From positions 48,963,402 to 49,027,401 of the forward strand of contig NC_091930.1 in the NCBI RefSeq assembly GCF_041260155.1: a DNA stretch of 64,000 nucleotides. Reading direction: 5' to 3'. The translations under genes and the position numbers were made by a program. The notes below the pieces were generated by a model. The model was not told the DNA's origin. It saw only the letters and a list, made by a program, of their open reading frames with translations, and did no database searches. Position 1 is the first letter of the stretch; every line of letters starts with the position of its first letter. This stretch comes from Ptychodera flava (taxonomy: Eukaryota > Hemichordata > Enteropneusta > Ptychoderidae). Below are positions 1,347 to 49,953 of this stretch, in pieces.

Positions 1347-3129
1347 GTTACTGGAAAAACAAGCAAGGGTGTCCGAACAGGAAAAGCCAAAGGAGAACCA
1401 TCTTGTGAAATTTACACTTTTAACAAGCAAAGGCTCCGTTGACATTCAGTGTTCGGCAAATACATCTCTTTATGAAGGTATTAAAGACAATGATGTTGTT
1501 CGAGACCCGGAGAATTTTACCACTGAAATCAAAGAGGAAGACCAGCTGCATGTTCCCAATTTGGGTGCCCGAGCAGGGTGGTTTGCAGGGAAGAAGTCAA
1601 TTTAAAATATTTTAAGGGTGAGAATAACAAGGTGTCAAAGAACAGACGATATTATGAGCTAGGTTGTTTTCCTCAAAAGGAAAATTACTTCCTTTTAAAA
1701 TTGATTCAAGATACTTTGAAATTGATATAAAACAATTGACCATTTTATCTCGAAGTAACTACAAAAATCAATACTTATGTGTTGACTTTGGATGGAGAAT
1801 CATTCCTAACAGCTTTACATGAAGACGGGAGATTCAAGACAGATGAGCTAGATCATTGTTTCCTTACCACTTTAGCAGAGACAAAAGTTCGACTAGATCT
1901 TAAACCAAGTACATATAAGGGCAATACTTTTTACTTGAGATGGAGTAAAAAGCGTCAAGTCAAAGATCAATCTGTCAGATCAAAAGTTGGCTCTACTTCA
2001 AAACCAAAAGAAAGTAAGCACGAAAACGACAGAGGTAAAACCATCAAAGCCAATTCCATCAGAGATCCTCAAATCCCAGCCGTTGAAAATGCACCTAGAG
2101 GCAAGGAAAGCAGAAGTGTCTTTCCCGTTTTAAGAGCCGGTACTTGTGAAACACCTGTACCGATGGGAAGACAGTAAAGTTCAGGTTTTGGATCTAGTGG
2201 TAAATTCAAATTGAAATATTTTCCAACTGATAGACTGAAATCCTTAATACACAATAAGTATCCAGAGTTAGATCTCGAAAGTAAAGAAGATAAACGACGT
2301 GACAGTGCGAGAAAGAACAAAATTGATTCGTACATTATGGAAAACTTTAGTCACAATGGCAGAGAAAAATCTTACATTGAAATGAAAAAAGATTTTGAAG
2401 TTATAACCATGTACAGCAAAGCAATTGCGGTGATATATTGGCCAAATGGAAACAAGACTGGAAATGCCACCGCATTCAGATTAGGCCAAAGTTACATCAT
2501 CACAAATTACCATGTATGGCAAAACATAGTGAATTGTAAGGTTGAAAGTAAAAATGTTGAACTTGTATTTGGTTGGCAAGAAGAGCTTCCACTTGAGAAT
2601 CTGGAGCTCCGCTTTTCTGTTCGTCTCAAACCTTACTTTATGAGTCAAACTGACGAACTTGATTACGTAGTTTTGGCGGTTAATCCAGACCCTAGAATAA
2701 AACTACCGAGTCCGGTTGGGCATCTCGTACCACCCTTGCCAGTCAGCAATGGGCACACCCCTTAACAATCGCCGGCCACCCCGGTTTCAAACCACTGCGC
2801 GTTGACCCAGATTGTTATTCTCTCGATATTGAATCATTAGAAGACGCTCCAATCTATATTAGTTCCGGTGAATGGGTAGAAGATGATGTAAAACAGAAAG
2901 CTACTGATTCTGATAGACATGTCTATCATACAAATCTGTTTCATGGGGCATCGGGCTCCCCTGTGTTACGCGTGACGGAAAGTTGGTTGCAATGCATACA
3001 AAGGGGTTTTTCCGCCATTGTAACAAAGTCGTTAGTGGTTTTGAACAGGGTGTTTCCATGGTTAGCATACGTGACCATATTCACAAGAGTTGTATGTTAA
3101 AACAGCAGAACGGCGAGCACAATGGTTGA
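1347..3129 (+). pseudogene. FAM111-like trypsin-fold protease, last exon, broken frame
   Basis: This matches the FAM111 family: an N-terminal ubiquitin-like part (FTLLTSKG...NTSLYEGIKDND, about 1400-1500), a second part with LTALHEDGRF (about 1800-1830), then a trypsin-fold protease. The catalytic triad is visible: His in ITNYHVW (near 2510), Asp in DELDYVVLAV (near 2660) and Ser in GASGSP (near 2950), followed by GKLVAMHTKGF as in other FAM111 proteins. The reading frame is interrupted: a frame change near 1602, stops near 1711 and 1737, an in-frame TAA at 2175-2177, a frame change near 2762 (between GHTP and LTIAGHP, fitting loss of one T) and another near 2966. The frame then runs to TGA at 3127-3129. 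In vertebrates FAM111A acts in the nucleus, at replication forks and in restriction of some DNA viruses. It is either a recent pseudogene or a copy with sequence errors. Confidence 0.8.
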
Positions 3130-9970: not shown

Positions 9971-26794
<16,824 letters not shown>

Positions 26795-34033: not shown

Positions 34034-34150
34034 ATGAATGGAGAGGTAATCAGGCGAAGCTTGTTCGATAGCAACGGTAATAATTCGAGTCGTTTTGCAG
34101 GGAGTGATGCGTGTTACAGCATGAACCGGACAGCGGAGGCTACAAGTGAG
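34034..34150 (+). CDS. Candidate first coding exon
   Basis: ATG at 34034 opens 39 codons (MNGEVIRRSLFDSNGNNSSR... to ATSE) ending at GAG|GTAGGT in phase 0. No domain. It is assigned to this locus by order and phase only. Confidence 0.35.
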
Positions 34151-38675: not shown

Positions 38676-38769
38676 ATTGACCTAGTTTCTACAGGAAATA
38701 CTGAAAGCTCGGATGACGTCAGTACCAAAAATGAAACCGTCGACAGCGGCACAAGTCTGGCTAAAAAGG
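38676..38769 (+). CDS. Possible exon of the RHIM-SAMD9-like locus
   Basis: Acceptor TATTTTACAG, donor AAGG|GTGAGC. Phase 0 in, phase 1 out. Encodes IDLVSTGNTESSDDVSTKNE, low-complexity Ser/Thr/Asp. The out-phase does not match the RHIM exon acceptor. Confidence 0.4.
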
Positions 38770-39819: not shown

Positions 39820-40105
39820 CCAATATCTGATTCTGATCGGTCTATCATGGTAGAGAGCACACAATCGCATGGAACCAGTGTAGAGAGTGACAACACATCA
39901 CCATCTCCACCACAGATGTCTGTAGAATCCAGTACTCTTCCACCGGAAAAGCAGCATAGTCTACCAGAGCCAACAACACAGGACAGTGGAGCGAGTGTGC
40001 CTATCGCTGGACCACAACTACCAACGACTGGTACAACAAACATATACCAAATCCATAAATCAAATGTCCAAATTGGCGATAAATGCCAGCAGATCAATAA
40101 CTATG
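39820..40105 (+). CDS. RHIM-motif exon
   Basis: Open frame from the CAG acceptor at 39817-39819 (weak pyrimidine tract) or the ATG at 39847 to a TATG|GTAAG donor. About 65 Ser/Thr/Pro-rich residues are followed by NIYQIHKSNVQIGDK and CQQINNYG. This matches the RHIM core: NIY, four to six residues, Ser, one residue, then V-Q-I-G-D (VQIG at 40066-40077), as in human RIPK3 (NIYNCSGVQVGD) and RIPK1 (YIYNSTGIQIG). RHIMs stack into amyloids that trigger necroptosis or NF-kB signalling. The usual Asn three residues after Gly is replaced (DKC). It joins the next exon in phase 1. Confidence 0.6.
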
Positions 40106-40317
40106 GTAAGTCGCTTCATTTATAATGATAGGTAGGCCTTGCTAGATTGCACAATGCAATGTAACATAGTTTTGAACCACAAAATTGTACGATTACCTGT
40201 ATCCATAGTCCAAAAGTTAACGAGTCAGTGACTGGAATACTAAACTAAGAATACTTGTGATTTTTTAGTGACTCATACCCTGTTCTTTGTTTAACATGAT
40301 TGGAGCTAATGTGGGAT

Positions 40318-41550
40318 AATTCGATCTTCACATTTTTCAAATTTTTTAAAAAAGTCAGGTGCCCTATAGCTAAATGTTGCAATACCGCTAGTTTTCACTA
40401 GCACTCACGCTCACTATCGTACATGGCACATACACACTTTATCGAAGCGAAGAAACGAATTTCATCGCTTTAACTGGGCGAACGATAACCTCGGGGACAA
40501 TTCTGTCCACCAGCAGTGTTACCAACCCAGGGTAGAAAATACGGCTAGTTTTCAATCGGATTCGAACCCACAACATACAGCATCAGTCGCCTAGCTGAGA
40601 GGCCATAGACGGAACCGCTCGGCTAAATCTCCACTCCCAAAAAAGAGTGGTTCAATAGCCGGCTAAGTTGTTACATTTTTCTGACTGAGACCGCTCAACA
40701 CGTTGTAGAGTTCGTGAAGCACTCACGCTCACTATCATACATCGCACATACACACTTTATCGAAGCGAAGAAACAAATTTCATCGCTTTAACTGGGCTAA
40801 CGATAACCTCGGGGACAATTCTGTCCACCAGCAGTGTTACCAACCCAGGGTAGAAAATACGGCTAGTTTTCAATCGGATTCGAACCCACAACATACGGCA
40901 TCAGTCGCCTAGCTGAGAGGCCACAGACGGAACCGCTCGGCTAAATCTCCACTCCCAAAAAAGAGTGGTTCAATAGCCGGCTAAGTTGTTACATTTTTCT
41001 GACTGAGACCGCTCAACACGTTGTAGAGTTTGTGAAGCACTCACGCTCACTATCATACATCGCACATACACACTTTATCGAAGCGAAGAAACGAATTTCA
41101 TCGCTTTAACTGGGCGAACGATAACCTCGGGGACAATTCTGTCCACCAGCAGTGTTACCAACCCAGGGTAGAAAATACGGCTAGTTTTCAATCGGATTCG
41201 AACCAACAACATACGGCATCAGTCGCCTAGCTGAGAGGCCACAGACAGAACCGCTCGGCTAAATCTCCACTCCCAAAAAAGAGTGGTTCAATAGCCGGCT
41301 AAGTTGTTACATTTTTCTGACTGAGACCGCTCAACACGTTGTAGAGTTTGTGAAGCACTCACGCTCACTATCATACATCGCACATACACACTTTATCGAA
41401 GCGAAGAAACGAATTTTATCGTTTGCAATATTACAAAGTACTCAAAAACAAGTGTATAACTTAAAAGAAAAAAAAAGCAGTTGAGCTTACATTTGCAGAT
41501 TCCAAAAGCATACTTCACTAACCAATTATCCCAGATTAGTTCCGATCGTG
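40318..41550. repeat. Dispersed repeat split by a nested insertion
   Basis: The flanks 40318-40384 and 41423-41550 together match 3505-3700. The insertion 40385-41422 is bordered by TTGCAATA on both sides (40377-40384 and 41423-41430), an 8-base target duplication. Confidence 0.7.
40385..41422 (-). mobile_element. Tandem array of a tRNA-derived SINE-like 318-base unit
   Basis: ACTCACGCTCACTATC starts at 40403, 40721, 41039 and 41357, an exact 318-base period. There are three full units and a partial fourth, nearly identical. On the minus strand each unit has a Pol III A-box-like TAGCCGAGCGG (40615-40625 in unit 1) and a B box GGGTTCGAATCC (40558-40569), as in a Leu/Ser-type tRNA. A 14-base inverted pair (CCACTC, TTTTTTGGGAGTGG) lies beside it. 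The array lies in the intron after the RHIM exon. Confidence 0.75.
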
Positions 41551-43679
41551 TTGCTTTATCATTGATTTTAATACTGATTTTTGCTTTGATGAGAGAGCGC
41601 CATTATTGAGTCGTCACTGGTAGATCTTCACATTATTATGAAGGCTCATCTCTACCTTCATGGACTGTGTAGACATGTACCAGCAAAATTTATTGTTTTA
41701 TGTTTCATGTCTATATTTAAAATATGTTCACATTGGTGCTCTTTGAAAAAAATGTTATCAATGTTTTGAAATTCAATTCATATCAAGATATGATAACAAT
41801 ACCCTCTGTGAGCTATGTAAAGTCCAAAATTGTCAAAGTGAGCGTGAAAGTGCTCGATCGAGCACTTTACGGGAATTGGCAAAGTTAGCTTTCAGAGATC
41901 TCCTGCGTGTATTATTAAGTCCTTCGCATTAATGAAATATTCAGAATTTCACTCCTGTAAGTTGACAACTTTAAAGTCTGCTTCGGAACATCCTCATTCC
42001 AGAATGATTTTATCACGCAAGTGAATTTCACCGGAATGGTGAATACCGAAAAAAATATTCGAGAACTTTTGTTGACGTACAAGTTGATTATTTCTTATAC
42101 GTAGAGTATGCACCTAGGAGCGCTTGACGTTTCCTTCATGATTTAGAGTCAAAACTCGGATATTATTTCTTACTTCTCCTCCGACCTTATAATGAGGCAT
42201 GATGGATACGATACTGATACAGTCGATTTGCGATAAGATATGCAGGTCGACCAGGTATGCAGGCCAAGCAATATGAACTGTGATCTGTTATGTGACAAGT
42301 GTTCAGTATAAAGTACGTAATAGGCTACGCATTCCACTGTATCTATAGCTGGTTTGCCTTTTTGTTTTTCACCCGACTATCACTTGGAGGAGGGCAATAT
42401 ACCTTCCTTGGACACTTCGCCAGTAAACGGTCACTTTATGACCTATGATCTTGGTCAAAGTCGAATGTCGGTCGCGTTTGTTAATATGTTGCCCTCCTCG
42501 TTCGTAACAGCATAATGAACATGCGCTTTTCTAAGACTAAATATAGGCGAGTTCGTAGTGATTCAGAAGTTGTCAAAAGTTTCTGAAAAACATGCCTCGC
42601 AAAGCGTGTACGTAATGGTACTTGCAGCATCATATTAAGCACCAGCCCAATAGGTACTTGGAATTGCCGATGTGGTTCACCATGGTCTTTCTCTTCCATT
42701 ATTTTACGGTGAACACTTGACGCACCTGTACTCATTTAGTGTTCACTTTGTCATTTTCTTATCAACGCTCACGTTATCATTTTCAATGCTCAGTTGACGC
42801 TCAGTTTATCGATTTTGGGCCCTTACATACTTGCCTCGATTGCGAATTCATTCCCAGGCTGTCTTTCAGAGGACTGGAAACTGTGGTTGTGATAAACTAC
42901 GCCCTCTACGTCCTTAAAAGCTAATTACCATTCGTTTTAGTTACTGAAGTGGCAAGGAAACCCAATGTTTACGTTATCATTATATAACTAACTTGTACCA
43001 AAAGATGTTGCTCTTATCTTCTTAAGAAGTTACACTTCGAAATCTGTCGTAGTTATAATTAAAACTATCGGACTGGTGATCTCCTGTGAAATAGCCCCCT
43101 CGATCATCTTCGTGAAAAGTAAGATTTCACCGACTTGTTATCCAACTTCATCAAAACCCTTTTCAAATCGGTTATAATTAGTCCCCTTGAGTATAAAACA
43201 AAGTCACAACATTGTGAAAACTATGAAACTAAACATGTATCCGTTTATGACAACGGGGATTAGCTCATATCTGCACACGTGTTTAATATCATATGAATTA
43301 TTGCACAATCCAAAGTGCTGAAAAACAGAATTTCTTTATGAAGAATATTTTCATAGACATTAGATAACACTACTGTACTTCACAAAATATCTCTCCTGGT
43401 ATTTCACTCAGCTAATGATTAATGCAGGGGAAATACATTTGTTGATGCGGTTCACTTACACTGGCAGCTCTTTTGGTTGTTTTCTGTTGTCTTTTTATTT
43501 AACTTTGTGTTACTGACGTCTACAAATTTTCCGTGAGTCTGAATGTGAATTCCACAAACATAATAGGAACACCTTTTAGCCCGTGGTTCTCCTTTTATAG
43601 ATTCTGACTATTTATGCGCTGCTTCCCAATTGCATCACTGATGTCAACGCATTTAGCTTTTACACCCTTCATTTTGCAG
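41551..43679. other. Intron; no gene seen
   Basis: Contains CTCGATCGAGCACTT-like short palindromes and short open frames without motifs. Confidence 0.5.
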
Positions 43680-44064
43680 AAATGCCCCTGAAAGCTGAGC
43701 TGAAGTACAAGCATGACAAACAAGCTTCGGACATAATGTTAAGCCGCGCCCAAAAATGGTTTGATGATGCCGCAGACATCAAAAAGAACCCGAGAAATAT
43801 GAGAAAATCTTTAAAATATTTGAGGGCATAGGAGCCGTTCTCAAAGAGATTGCCCTGGGTGCCTCGAATTTAAACTTAGCCTTCCAACAGCTACATCGCT
43901 TGTATTACTCTGGGATCGGCACCAGGAATTCCTTCCAAGACAACTCGAAACAGTGATGATTACAGAGGAAGTCATTAAATCTGTGAATGGTCGACCACTG
44001 CAAATATGTATTATCATGGATCAGATGATGTATAATAGGGGCTTACAATTTTTTGCAACTCAAG
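43680..44064 (+). pseudogene. Helical exon of the RHIM-SAMD9-like locus, frame-shifted
   Basis: Acceptor ATTTTGCAG, donor CAAG|GTAAGA; both phases match the neighbours. The first frame gives MPLKAELKYKHDKQASDIML and a predicted amphipathic helix. A frame change near 43805 leads into FKIFEGIGAVLKEIALGASN, and another near 43910 into EFLPRQLETVMITEEVIKSV. The exon is 385 bases, one more than a multiple of three, while its phases require a multiple of three. All-helical; the fold is not recognised. Confidence 0.5.
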
Positions 44065-44588
44065 GTAAGATGTATCGGGAGAATTCATCAAATGATAGGC
44101 GAGCGGATTGCCTTATTTTATGAATCACTTTGATAACTGCCATAATCGAACACCTATGTAAGTGTCCTTTACTGGAAATGTTTATTTCTCTAGGATCTGT
44201 CAGGATATAATACCCTACTTAATTGCATTTTCGGAATTCCTTTTTTAGCTGAGCTTGTATCATTCTAGAAAAAAGCAATAATCCTGAATGAATTTTGATA
44301 CTAAACTATTCAATGAGTAAAGCTCTTTCCATCGTGTCCTTGGAAGTGCAACATCCAAAAGCGGAGCAATAAATGCGACACAACAATCAGGCATACAGTT
44401 CACATATAAAACCTGAAAAATAGGGATGAGAGGAAATTTTGATTGAGTTTCCATTTTGGGGCGCTTTGCATTGTCACTCATTTTTTTATTTGAATTGACA
44501 TCATTTTTCAAGCAATGTTGCAGTTTTCAATATTTTCCGGTTACTTCATGTATATTCATGCCTTTTGTGCTTCTCTTTCAATAATAAG

Positions 44589-47500
44589 ACAATTTGGCAA
44601 AACTGTCTTCAAGAAGGCCAAAGAAGATGAAAGATTGGAATGCTATAGATGTACGCGATTGGTTGAACGAAATTGGTATTGACACAAAATATGTCAAACG
44701 AATATATGAAGAGGAGATCACTGGCCCAGTACTCATGATGTATAGAGAGAAAGACCTTGAAGCAGATTTCGACCTTAAGAAGGGAGCCCTGCGAAACATC
44801 ATGTATTCAAGGGAAAATCAAATTGAAAACGAGGCCAGGCAAAGTCTTCAGGAAACGTCGATAGATAAGTCCTATGAGCAGAGTGTTGTTTCTTCGTCCA
44901 CCCATGACAAAAAGCATTCCGAAGGCATATGGTCGATTCCATCTGCTGGCGATAGGGAGTTATCATCTACAGAAGGTGGAGGTGCATTGAAACCTTCAAA
45001 ATCATTGCCATATAAGGAACATCGTTACCTTTTGCAAGAGGTCACACCCCATTCTTCGACAATTGAAGGGGAAGATCAAAACAAGGCCAGAGATGTCGTA
45101 AAGAGAGAGAAAATGACGGCCATATTTGGGAGAGATGAGCAAAGGACTGAACAGTCCGAAAAGCATGACATGGATGTTCAAGAGAAGCATTATGATAAAG
45201 GAATTTAGCCAGTTCTACGAAGACAAAGGAAATGAGAAGCAGCTCCCTTGAAAGCGAAACGGAGGTTCTTGATCTCACTGAGGGAGTAACAGAGATGAGG
45301 TCGCCGACGCAATATTCAACAGAGGATAGAAAACTAAAAGAATATGGAGCACAGGAAAAGAGACAAGATAACAAATTTCATAGACAAGGAACAAGCGAGC
45401 AAGATCCGACACATGTGCAACCCTTAGATCAAGAAACGAGCTGTGTTGATGCCCAAAAAGCCCGTATGTCTGAAAAGATGGTGGATGTCAATATCATGCA
45501 GTCTAAAGATAATGATGATGACGTGAACAAACAGTGCAAATCTTCAACTTCTGTGTCACCAAATAGTGACAAACAAACTCGGAAAACATTTAGCTATAGT
45601 CAGTCCTTTTGTAGGAGAGCAAGATAAAGGAAATGAAAGTGGACATGCTAGGTCTAGAGACACTGCGGTAGAAGAAAGTGATGATGAGTTTTATCAGAAA
45701 ATGTTAAGACGAATGGGGATAAAATCAAGTTCACGTGAAGTGTCTTCCAGCCAAACACATGCAAAGAAGACAAGTCTGAAAACAGATCAGGGATTTTCCA
45801 AATTGAAAGACTCTAGCAATAAGCAGCATAAGCCGAATATCACACAATCGGATCGTTGCCTGAAGGAGCTTTTGTGTGGGGGATCAAAACAAATAGATGC
45901 TTCATTGTACCCTCTGCTTGTCATTAATAAGCCAGCTGAAGAGATTTTTAAAGCTGGCGTAGATACGCCTCTGTCAAGGGACCTTCAGTTTATAAGTAGT
46001 GTTAAGTGGGTTGGAGTGTTTGACCTTGATGCTGAATCCTATGAAGGTGGTTTGTGTAAGCTATTCAGAAGCAAGAATGACATCATAGCCCAGTTGCCGG
46101 AGACCTTCTGCAACATTTCAGAAGTAGGTTGTTTTCGAGATGATATGAGGTTTCCTGAAGTGACAACATGGATTTTTGCGAATGGACGTACTGAGATGGC
46201 AGAAGAAGCCCTTGATAGAAAGCAGTGGAATGCTGTGCGAAGCAATGGTGTTGAAGATGCAATTAGCTTTTTGCCAAACCAGAAGTTATTCCTGACTTAA
46301 AGAGAGCAACAATACTGTTTCTTCTCCTATCAGACAACCTTGGCATTATGTGTGACACATTCCGTAAGTTTTATTCAACGTTTGGCATAGAACACATAAC
46401 ATGTATTGCTGAAAAAGAAGACTACTTTGTAAAATGGGTCGATGAAATAGAAAAGTGGTGTTGCCGTGAAATGCTTGAAGAAAGAAGTGTTGTAGGCATG
46501 TCCTGGCAAGCTGTTAAAGAGAGTGTCATGAGTATTCAGGGAGTCATTCACAAGACAGATGATTATCTCCCTTCTTCGTCTGGCTCAAGTTGTCCTTTAT
46601 CGGAACGAGACAGAAATAGGTGGTCAGATTTGTCAATCCTGTGCCAAAATGAGTGTGAAAATACAACAATGGCTGACAGTAGTAGCGGTTTTGAAGAATT
46701 TGCACAAAGTATGGAGCTTGACTTTTACCGAGGTCATAAAGTCTCATGGTGGAATTTTCACTTAACTGGCAAGAAGTACAACCAGGTTCTGAAAAGAGAC
46801 ATTCATGAGCAGTTACACGATATGGTTGATGTTTCACTCAGAGAGAATCAAGACTCTCTTCCACGTGTGGTGCTACTAAGATTATTTCATCAACCTGGGG
46901 CTGGTGGAAGCACTTTAGCAAGACATATCCTTGGGATTTCCATAAGAAGTTCCGCTGTCTTGTGGTGAACCATATTAGAGTGAAGACATGGGAACAAATT
47001 CTTGAGGTGCGCAAATACGGAGAGGTCGATCCCTCTGACTGCAAACCCGTTCTTGTTTTGGTTGAAGATGCCGAAGACACAGAGATCAACGAGCTGATAT
47101 ATCATCTCGAATCAGGTTCAAGGACAACTTCACATCAAGCTGGCTGTCCATTGTTTGTTGTACTGCATTGTAAAAGAGTCCATTCCCCGTATAAACACAT
47201 GGTGAAGTGCCAGAACACGAGTATAAAGCTAGAACAAGAACTGAGCAGTAGAGAAATAAGATGGTTTGCTGAGAAACATCGAGAGCTAGACACCAAAAAG
47301 GCAAAAGGTCTTAAAAGGTCTTCAAATATACAGTCCCGATAGGCTCGTTTCCTTTATGGTTATGAAGGACAATTTCAAGAGAGATTATGTCGAGAATCTT
47401 GTAAGTAGAATACTCCAGGACATACCAAGTGACAAAGGAGAGTCTCATCTTTTGAAGTTCTGTGCCCTGTTGAATAAATATGAGCCAGATGCGTCGATAC

Positions 47501-49664
47501 CAGTTTCTTGCTTGGATGCTATAATGGGAGGTACTTACCTTAAGAGGAAAAGCAAAAAACATAAGCAAGACACACAGGAACTTTGGGAGAACCATGTATC
47601 TGACTCTGCCCAAATGTTGCTGTTGAAAGTTCATATCATTCATGTAGGAGGAGTGTTTGGTATGAAGATAGTTCACCCAATTGTAGCAGATGAAGTACTG
47701 AAACAAACTAAAGAGATACACAATAAAACAACGGCAGATATCGCAGTCGAGTACATACAGTCAGAACTTTTCAAAGGATCACAACACAGCAAGGAGTACC
47801 TTGTGCACAAAACTCATGACATGCTTATCCGAAGAAAGAAGGTTGAATTTGGCGATGAGCAAGATTCAGAATTTTCAGAGCTGATTGAAAGTTTGTGTGA
47901 GGATGCTCGCACGGAAGAAGCTTGCAGGGTTCTTGAATGCAGTTTCAATGTGCTCAAGGAAGCTATGATAGGCCAGCAACTGGCACGGCTATATTACATT
48001 CGAATGAAGACATTTGATAAGGCGCACAAATATGCAGACGAAGCCATCAACCTATTACCAACAAATTCATATCTACTTGACACCAAAGGACAAATATACA
48101 AACACGAAATCAAATACAAGTATGAGGAAAAGTACTGTGGTGGTCTAAACGTACTCGGAATGGAAGAAACACATGCTGTCATACAACTCGCCTTTCAAGG
48201 TATCAGTTATTTTCGAAAGGCTCAAGAGGCAAACTTGACTGAGAAGAATTCCGAGAACATTGCAGGCTTTGTTGGAGAAGCAGATATCACATTTCTCCTT
48301 CTCCGAATATTGCAATCAGTAGAGTTATTCCGCGGCTTGGGAGGATCAGAGCTTCTACGTTCCTATCTCGCTACAGATATAGAACCTGAGCAACTTGGTC
48401 AGTGGGCACAATACCACCGCCAATTCAAAGAACTCCAAGGTCGTATTGAACGTGCCATAGACTGGATCAGTGATTATGTCACTTATTGTAAAGTTGGACT
48501 CTACGAATATGTACCACAGGGGTTTTCTAAAGTCGACAGAGTGAAGAGTAGACTGGAACACCTTGACAAGCAGTTTGCAAGATACTTTGGTGAACCCAAG
48601 GAATTACCATGCGATGAAAAGGACAGAGTTGTCGAAAATGCTAATGATTGGAGAAGACGACAAGTCCTTCATCTTGGTGGAAACACCTTCCATAAAGTCT
48701 TTGACATCGCAAAAGTTGTGAGCCAACCAAATATGCAACAACTGCTCAAAATAAGGCGACTTCTCTCTCTAAACTACCACAAAGTGCTTCTGATCTTCAA
48801 ACATTGATATGTGTAAATTTGGCATTATCACCCTTTCGCAAATGGGCTGTTCAATTGCCATCCCTAAAGGACGTTATTGATATGGCAAAGACCCTACATA
48901 ATTTCAGAGAATATGACAAGCTTTACGCCCCGTACTTTTTGTCTATGTTTCTCTGGCCTCGTGAATCATCTCAAGAAAATGATGTCAAAGGATTCCTGGA
49001 GTACGCACACGCACTGAGAACACGGTGGGATGCAATGCAGAAGCAGAATGGTGACTATCCGTTACAGAGTTATTCTTACTGGAGGGCACTGGGAATTAAA
49101 CCGAGGAAGAGGAAACCCCTGACATATTTCTTTCTTGGCAATGGAAAAGGGTTAGCTGCTTTTGTTCATAACAACGAACTGCATACTAGTGCTGGCAAGG
49201 TCGAAAATGAAAGGCAGCAATTCAGGGAGTCTGATATTGTTACAAAAAGACTTGTTCGGATCGAGGGGATGTTGAAAAATAGCGTAACAGCCATAGTTAA
49301 AGTAAGCGACGCTGGAAAACCTGTCATGATAAGTGTGCGATTAGCTGTACCACAGTTGCATATCGTTAGCCAAGAGCCAGTGAGTTTTTACTTAGGGTTC
49401 AGCTGGTCAGGACCTACAGCATTTTATGTAATGTCAAGAGATCAGCAATCAATGGCTATGGGTGGATACACCGTAAAGGGAGAAAGTATGATGCAAAAAC
49501 GACTGTCACCGAGAGAGATAGGAGATAAGCATGGAGATCACTCAACGATGCAGTTCGATTATGAGAGCTACAGGAAAAACCATCTAAAACTCGAGCGAAA
49601 ATTGAGAGAAATAGAAGAACTTGAAAATAGACAGCGACAAGGAAAGCCATTGGAATCACAACAG
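44589..49664 (+). pseudogene. SAMD9-like main exon
   Basis: Order: SAM domain (44620-44800, DWNAIDVRDWLNEIGIDTKY); a disordered Lys/Glu/Ser-rich segment to about 45850; the SAMD9 middle (KWVGVFDLDAES near 46010, ATILFLLLSDNLG near 46310); the family signature YRGHKVSWWNF (near 46725); a P-loop (QPGAGGSTLA, 46891-46920) and Walker B (PVLVLVEDAED, 47046 on); TPR-like helices (FDKAHKYADEAINLLPTN near 48015); and the OB-like C-terminus (YFFLGNGKGLAAFVH, VSFYLGFSWSGP, near 49120-49420). Frame changes lie near 45200, 45600, 46283, 46931, 47313 and 48750. The one at 47313 is a tandem copy of AAAAGGTCTT (47303-47322). Segments between are free of stops. Confidence 0.8.
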
Positions 49665-49851: not shown

Positions 49852-49953
49852 GTCGCGAAACTGAAGAAGAAAGTGGACATCGCAAAGGAACTGATAAAGT
49901 TAGAAGACAGCCACAAAAGGCAGATGTATGTAGATGATGATGTATACCAGTAG
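49852..49953 (+). CDS. Last exon of the SAMD9-like locus
   Basis: Acceptor TTCTGTACAG; VAKLKKKVDIAKELIKLEDS and HKRQMYVDDDVYQ, then TAG at 49951-49953. It extends the coiled coil (RKLREIEELENRQRQG) at the end of the main exon, in phase. Confidence 0.65.
   Translation, partial: VAKLKKKVDIAKELIKLEDSHKRQMYVDDDVYQ

Follow-up and report, generated by a model that had tools for sequence, protein, structure and literature searches.

A SAMD9-type gene of Ptychodera flava that carries a TRADD-N-type domain and a RHIM-like segment

Could an animal sensor of the SAMD9 type carry, in the same polypeptide, a segment that signals by forming amyloid? The RIP homotypic interaction motif (RHIM) is the amyloid-forming element of cell-death kinases. 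SAMD9 is an antiviral protein resembling the signal transduction ATPases with numerous domains (STAND), and its output in mammals is the depletion of tRNA-Phe (PMC12331169). The question arises from 64,000 nucleotides of the hemichordate Ptychodera flava (contig NC_091930.1, positions 48,963,402 to 49,027,401, hereafter the window), where an earlier note had proposed that a RHIM is spliced in phase to a SAM-SAMD9-like protein. Our comparisons support well a single gene that joins a segment with the tetrad VQIG to a SAM-SAMD9-like STAND protein, while the identity of that segment as a RHIM is only partly supported, and we therefore call it RHIM-like. The sequence itself shows which exons there are and in what order the P. 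flava models join them, that both SAM and the core are homologous to SAMD9, and that no AlbA_2/tRNase domain can be detected.

One gene and the order of its exons

The locus is one gene with at least six coding exons between 34034 and 49950, mapped by tblastn with the protein models P0003 and P0019 and by reading the splice sites from the sequence (Table 1). The window was compared with the P. flava models P0003, P0004 and P0019 and with the paralog P0005. P0003 and P0004 each hold the VQIG segment, the helical exon E4, SAM and SAMD9 core sequence in a single chain, and both span the two central junctions (...INNY-E-MPLK... and ...FFATQ-D-NLAKL...), which are phase 1 with consensus splice sites. 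On these two gene models the exon order is confirmed. The predicted protein would read, from its N-terminus, low-complexity leader, RHIM-like segment, TRADD-N-type domain, SAM, low-complexity linker, Sir2-like region, P-loop NTPase, TPR region and C-terminal region; the names Sir2-like, TPR and OB within E5 are assigned by colinearity with PMC5445408.

Much of the anatomy given in the earlier note was recovered as described: NIYQIHKSNVQIGDKCQQINNY closes its exon ahead of a phase 1 donor at 40105/40106 (G/GTAAGT), and the helical exon (43680) and the SAM exon (44589) follow in matching phase, with both junctions present in P0003 and P0004. Its start for the RHIM exon, 39820, has to be revised, as neither model supports it; the splice form that fits P0003 has its acceptor before 39854, and an alternative start is the ATG at 39847, where P0004 begins. 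The note had also overlooked E1, E2 and E6, had not recognised the helical exon as TRADD-N-type, and had not remarked that no tRNase domain can be detected. When E1, E2 and E3 are spliced, they form a continuous, intact frame that ends in NIYQIHKSNVQIGDKCQQINNY.

Could the RHIM-like exon instead be a separate gene, joined to SAMD9 by gene prediction alone? The intron that parts E3 and E4 is 3.6 kb long and holds copies of a repeat, as such a reading would have it, but the same join occurs in two P. flava models with differing starts, and the splice sites are consensus and phase 1 on both sides; we consider a false join highly improbable. Within this intron, at 40430-41400, a repeat unit of about 320 bases recurs three to four times in tandem; by eye it looks like a tRNA-like short interspersed element.

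Table 1. Coordinates of the exons, motifs and domains of the SAMD9-type gene, numbered from the first base of the window
Feature	Position	Strand	Basis or remark
E1 coding exon (MNGEVIRRSLFDSN...ATSE)	34034..34150	+	tblastn P0003 aa 1-48, 87.5%; donor GAG/GTAGGT; continuous frame
E2 coding exon (IDLVSTGNTESS...SLAKK)	38676..38769	+	tblastn P0003 aa 39-70, 87.5%; AG acceptor, GTGAGC donor
E3 coding exon with RHIM-like segment	39854..40105	+	tblastn P0003; donor G/GTAAGT at 40105/40106
RHIM-like segment NIYQIHKSNVQIGDKCQQINNY	40039..40104	+	tetrad VQIG at 40066-40077; Pfam PF12721 negative
E4 coding exon, predicted TRADD-N-type domain	43680..44064	+	126/126 aligned residues identical to P0003; two single-base deletions
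E5 coding exon: SAM, low-complexity linker, Sir2-like region, STAND P-loop, TPR region, C-terminal region	44589..49664	+	
SAM domain	44633..44806	+	Pfam SAM_1 7.4e-5; fish SAMD9 SAM against P0003 3e-7
SAMD9-type Walker A HQPGAGGSTLA, GGS replacing GKS/T	46888..46920	+	translation
E6 last coding exon (VAKLKKKVDIAKEL...DDDVYQ stop)	49852..49950	+	tblastn P0019; acceptor and stop read

The window copy is distinct from the copies behind P0003 and P0004, as differences in the N-terminal linker reveal, and the C-terminal half of the gene is colinear with P0005 and P0019. P0019, a C-terminal model, is 99.6% identical to the window across its first 474 residues, and 752 of the 765 residues of the window aligned with it are the same. 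The claim that the exons are joined in phase holds for the junctions and fails for the frames of E4 and E5, which are interrupted in this copy: frame-aware alignment finds eight breaks, two of them single-base deletions in E4 (385 bases in the window, donor at 44064/44065) relative to P0003, and six in E5. E3 is free of them. Such breaks would be expected of a decayed pseudogene that makes no such protein. One of them is an apparent 10-base duplication (judged by eye), and even the P. flava models are truncated or divided (P0003, 1256 amino acids; P0004, 961; P0019, 803). Against decay, the other seven breaks are aligned as indels of one base, at least one P. flava model runs across each of the eight, E1 to E3 are intact, and no in-frame stop lies between breaks. 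The alignment does count two stops, one at 44585, still in the intron ahead of the E5 acceptor, the other at 47036, where P0003 and not the window shifts frame; further breaks at 46998-47048 likewise belong to P0003, the window agreeing there with P0005 (EQILEVRKYGE against EQILEFRKYSE).

Residue identity is also high. Despite its two deletions, E4 matches P0003 at 126/126 residues (128 in the query) and P0004 at 120/126, and identity to P0003 is 210/211 over 46873-47532 and 745/795 over 44585-46994. Because E4 and 46873-47532 hold more indels than amino-acid changes, and the indels are not common to the models, the breaks are likelier to be assembly errors or private, allelic indels than old decay. 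An old pseudogene was thus set aside as unlikely on the high identity to P0003 and the lack of in-frame stops between breaks, and we give little credence to a decayed window copy in general.

The RHIM-like segment

The defining tetrad of the RHIM, (I/V)-Q-(I/V/L)-G, is present as VQIG at 40066 and again in P0003 and P0004. The best match to the RIPK3 RHIM anywhere in the window falls in E3, with a score of 42; in 20,000 shuffles each, that score was reached once for the exon and 10 times for the segment, and the alignment follows the pattern NIY...VQ[IV]GD...NY. When the 23 fetched proteins (P0003-P0025) were scored against RIPK3, P0004 reached 42 and P0003 36, the remaining 21 staying at or below 29.

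Several results weigh against a true RHIM. A match as good as 42 was found in 5 of 60 shuffled windows; alignment to RIPK1 is weak, with 492 of 20,000 exon shuffles doing as well; and compared with RIPK3 the stretch from IY to VQIG is two residues longer and is followed, after the tetrad, by a five-residue gap. A search of the exon with a RHIM profile, which the earlier note had proposed as a check, went the other way: Pfam PF12721 does not match the window exon at E<=1, nor the joined E3-E4 peptide or the P0003 peptide at E<=10, in a search that found a RIPK3 control peptide at 3.8e-11 and in which the HMMER filters discard most matches with an E over 0.1. In the predicted model, 17 of 21 segment residues have a predicted local distance difference test score (pLDDT) below 50. 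The tetrad is missing from all nine fetched starfish proteins, whose same-place stretches score at chance level against RIPK3 and RIPK1; the relatives that were to share this architecture do so in the TRADD-N-type region at the same place, and not in the tetrad.

Counting all six frames, the window holds [IV]Q[IVL]G three times, and the motif alone is marginal, barely above chance over 64 kb. What raises it above that level is that it sits in a real coding exon, next to TRADD-N and SAM. Neither the RHIM-like exon nor the joined 25-residue peptide gave a meaningful match in the PDB. Among the three P. flava copies, none of 21 columns varies from IYQ to the end, compared with 13 of 63 upstream (p=0.03; first two columns excluded). 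The result depends on one residue: once the N before IYQ, which P0003 lacks, is included, the counts become 1/22 and 12/62 (p=0.17). At most this gives a weak sign of constraint on the segment.

We also considered that starfish might share the RHIM, and dropped the idea: the tetrad is absent from the stretches before TRADD-N in P0010, P0011, P0012 and P0023, which are at chance level against RIPK3 and RIPK1. The lowest starfish shuffle counts, both from P0023b, were 1794 and 1244 of 20,000, respectively, and P0008 and P0009 start at TRADD-N. In P0023 and P0024 we noticed repeated stretches (for example TTINIEGNKNIVKVEGD and GNKEFNIKGDKNRVRVEGD), some of them before SAM or TRADD-N, that may be a shuffled beta- or amyloid-like motif.

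A plainer explanation has to be taken seriously, in which the VQIG segment does not form amyloid and is a short polar or beta leader before TRADD-N, as in starfish, that resembles a RHIM by chance. The negative Pfam search with its working control, the shuffled windows, the starfish stretches and the loss of the constraint signal once the preceding N is counted all speak for it. The rarity of an equal RIPK3 alignment among exon shuffles, the gap between P0004 and P0003 and the other 21 proteins, and the setting of the segment, next to TRADD-N and SAM in a protein of immune type, speak against it. We regard this as a real contender, tentative in its turn. Taken together, the segment is best described as RHIM-like, and the similarity to RIPK3 argues only partly for calling it a RHIM.

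TRADD-N, SAM and the SAMD9 core

On profile homology, the helical exon E4 is predicted to encode a TRADD-N-type domain. E4 aligns with starfish SAMD9-like proteins at the same position in the protein, and one of these, P0011, matches TRADD-like_N (PF20694) at 3e-8, above the curated cut-off. The same profile matches P0008, P0009 and P0010 at 0.005-0.03 and does not match P0012 at E<=1; run against the nine rows of our alignment A3, it matches seven at E<=10. An hhalign comparison of the two P. flava rows with the seven starfish rows gave P=4.5e-5 over 116 columns, and the residues G, L, L, W, L, T, E, Y, G, F and F are the same in all nine. In addition, the TRADD-N family is described as having a small residue followed by Ser (or Cys) in the turn between beta2 and beta3 (PMC8195603), and here the GC of PGCLEF stands opposite GS in six of seven starfish rows and GP in the seventh. 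Two points count against the assignment: PF20694 finds no match in the helical exon, in P0003 or in the first (P. flava) row of A3, and the hhalign probability is just 68.8. Structure added little. The fold comparison with a 248-residue model gave lists filled by SAM, with no TRADD entry among the best 50 listed in either; the TRADD-N-type domain modelled alone reached a pLDDT of 48, too poor for a fold search; and the TRADD-N rows, used as a profile against the PDB, returned a single chance-level match. A search with alignment A1 brought in two further starfish proteins and a single weak match besides; the searches for relatives scored only those candidates sharing most words, and further relatives may exist.

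The link to SAMD9 is firmer. Residues 697-1254 of P0003, the Sir2-like/P-loop core, match the solved SAMD9 37id_A with an E of 3e-70, and the P-loop carries the GGT/S signature described for the SAMD9 family (PMC5445408). By blastp, residues 6-96 of a fish SAMD9 (P0013) match residues 291-381 of P0003 at 3e-7. Core homology, P-loop and a SAM homologous to that of vertebrate SAMD9 thus all place the protein in this family. The SAM has been described as vertebrate-limited within the family (PMC5445408); a SAM homologous to that of fish SAMD9 was seen in the hemichordate P0003 and P0004 and also in the starfish P0009, P0010 and P0011. Further along the open reading frame of the window, Pfam gave a weak TPR_2 (E 0.19) and no OB match.

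What we newly note is that the fetched Ptychodera and starfish proteins have no detectable SAMD9 tRNase domain. In human SAMD9 the effector is an N-terminal tRNase, residues 156-385 (PMC12331169), and AlbA_2 is a part of the SAMD9 core that some members have lost (Mekhedov et al. 2017, PMC5445408). With the fish AlbA_2/tRNase region (P0013, residues 265-484) as query in phmmer --max against the 23 fetched proteins, no Ptychodera or starfish protein was found below E 0.9. The same query found P0015 (Mytilus), P0016 (Lymnaea) and P0018 at 4e-18 to 1e-19; the domain was undetected in P0014 and P0017 as well. SAM aside, the homology of the Ptychodera and starfish proteins to fish SAMD9 starts at fish residue 476 or later. 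Since no tRNase domain is detectable, the output of these receptors probably goes through adaptors. The starfish SAMD9-like proteins P0006, P0012 and P0024 have an N-terminal ubiquitin-like domain by Pfam, that of P0012 falling just under the cut-off.

Elsewhere in the window, an open frame at 16040-17080 holds three repeats of the type QPT.QVSVGSG..DL (VSVG, VHVG, ISLG) with no convincing Pfam family. At 1740-3100 there are pieces of a trypsin-like gene (Pfam Trypsin, E 0.04 on 2178-2762), which we take to be FAM111-like; frames overlap in these pieces at 2696-2765, possibly another frame break of the assembly.

A candidate signalling mode and its known relatives

How might such a receptor work? 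We favour, at a probability of roughly 0.48, a STAND receptor that signals through SAM/TRADD-N clustering, with the RHIM-like segment as a candidate amyloid nucleator. The C-terminal half would sense a ligand, the NTPase would oligomerise the receptor, and the SAM domains would polymerise. This clustering would gather many RHIM-like segments and TRADD-N domains, so that the segments could nucleate a small amyloid on which a partner is templated, and TRADD-N could bring in a second effector. The receptor would then signal via partners rather than by tRNA cleavage of its own.

What is listed of possible partners weighs against amyloid signalling. For the hemichordate Saccoglossus, RIPK5, RIPK6 and two MLKL genes are listed, with no RIPK1/3 (PMC11507063), so no known RHIM partner is at hand; in echinoderms, no RHIM-bearing RIPK1 was found (PMC12119088). 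Of the RHIM-SAMD9 protein of the earlier note, the single polypeptide stands, in two gene models; the RHIM-like segment and its coupling to RHIM signalling are candidates only. One could speculate further that, after loss of the tRNase, the RHIM-like segment of this SAMD9-type receptor seeds amyloid on a death effector in the absence of RIPK1 and RIPK3, as a hemichordate counterpart of the fungal amyloid NLRs (NOD-like receptors), but we hold this to be unlikely.

As the earlier note had supposed, our literature search, partly of titles and abstracts and with most subscription papers outside its reach, found no described protein that combines a RHIM with SAMD9, also where it was directed at RHIMs in hemichordates. 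In the literature searched, no fusion of SAMD9 with TRADD-N is described either, TRADD-N being met just in the title of a reference. If the segment favoured here as a nucleator does form amyloid, SAMD9 and RHIM biology would meet in a single protein, and NLR-type amyloid signalling could be put to the test in an animal.

Comparison with known systems places the protein between several of them. It shares with the RHIMs of RIPK3 and RIPK1 the V/I-Q-V/I-G tetrad and, with RIPK3, the alignment pattern given above; unlike them, it has the longer stretch before the tetrad, the gap after it, no Pfam RHIM match and no kinase. Animal and bacterial TRADD-N STAND proteins (Kaur et al. 2021, PMC8195603) likewise place TRADD-N between N-terminal parts and the STAND module, and the words RHIM and SAMD9 are absent from the main text of that paper. 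Fungal NLRs with an N-terminal PP motif, such as PNT1 (PMC7889193), also have a RHIM-related segment N-terminal to a STAND receptor, a likeness in working only. In contrast to the protein described here, which is known from its sequence, they have an NB-ARC-type NTPase, an adjacent partner gene and RHIM cross-seeding demonstrated by experiment.

Closest are the members of the SAMD9 family itself. Invertebrate proteins with CARD, Death, Pyrin or FIIND (PMC5445408, whose main text lacks the words TRADD and RHIM) have the same core with exchangeable N-terminal adaptor domains, whereas the protein of the window has SAM, TRADD-N and the RHIM-like segment. Vertebrate SAMD9 and SAMD9L share with it SAM and the core with its GGS/T P-loop; unlike them, the hemichordate protein has no detectable AlbA_2/tRNase and adds a TRADD-N-type domain and the RHIM-like segment in front. 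This would be a branch of SAMD9 in which the same sensor core is wired to adaptor or amyloid signalling.

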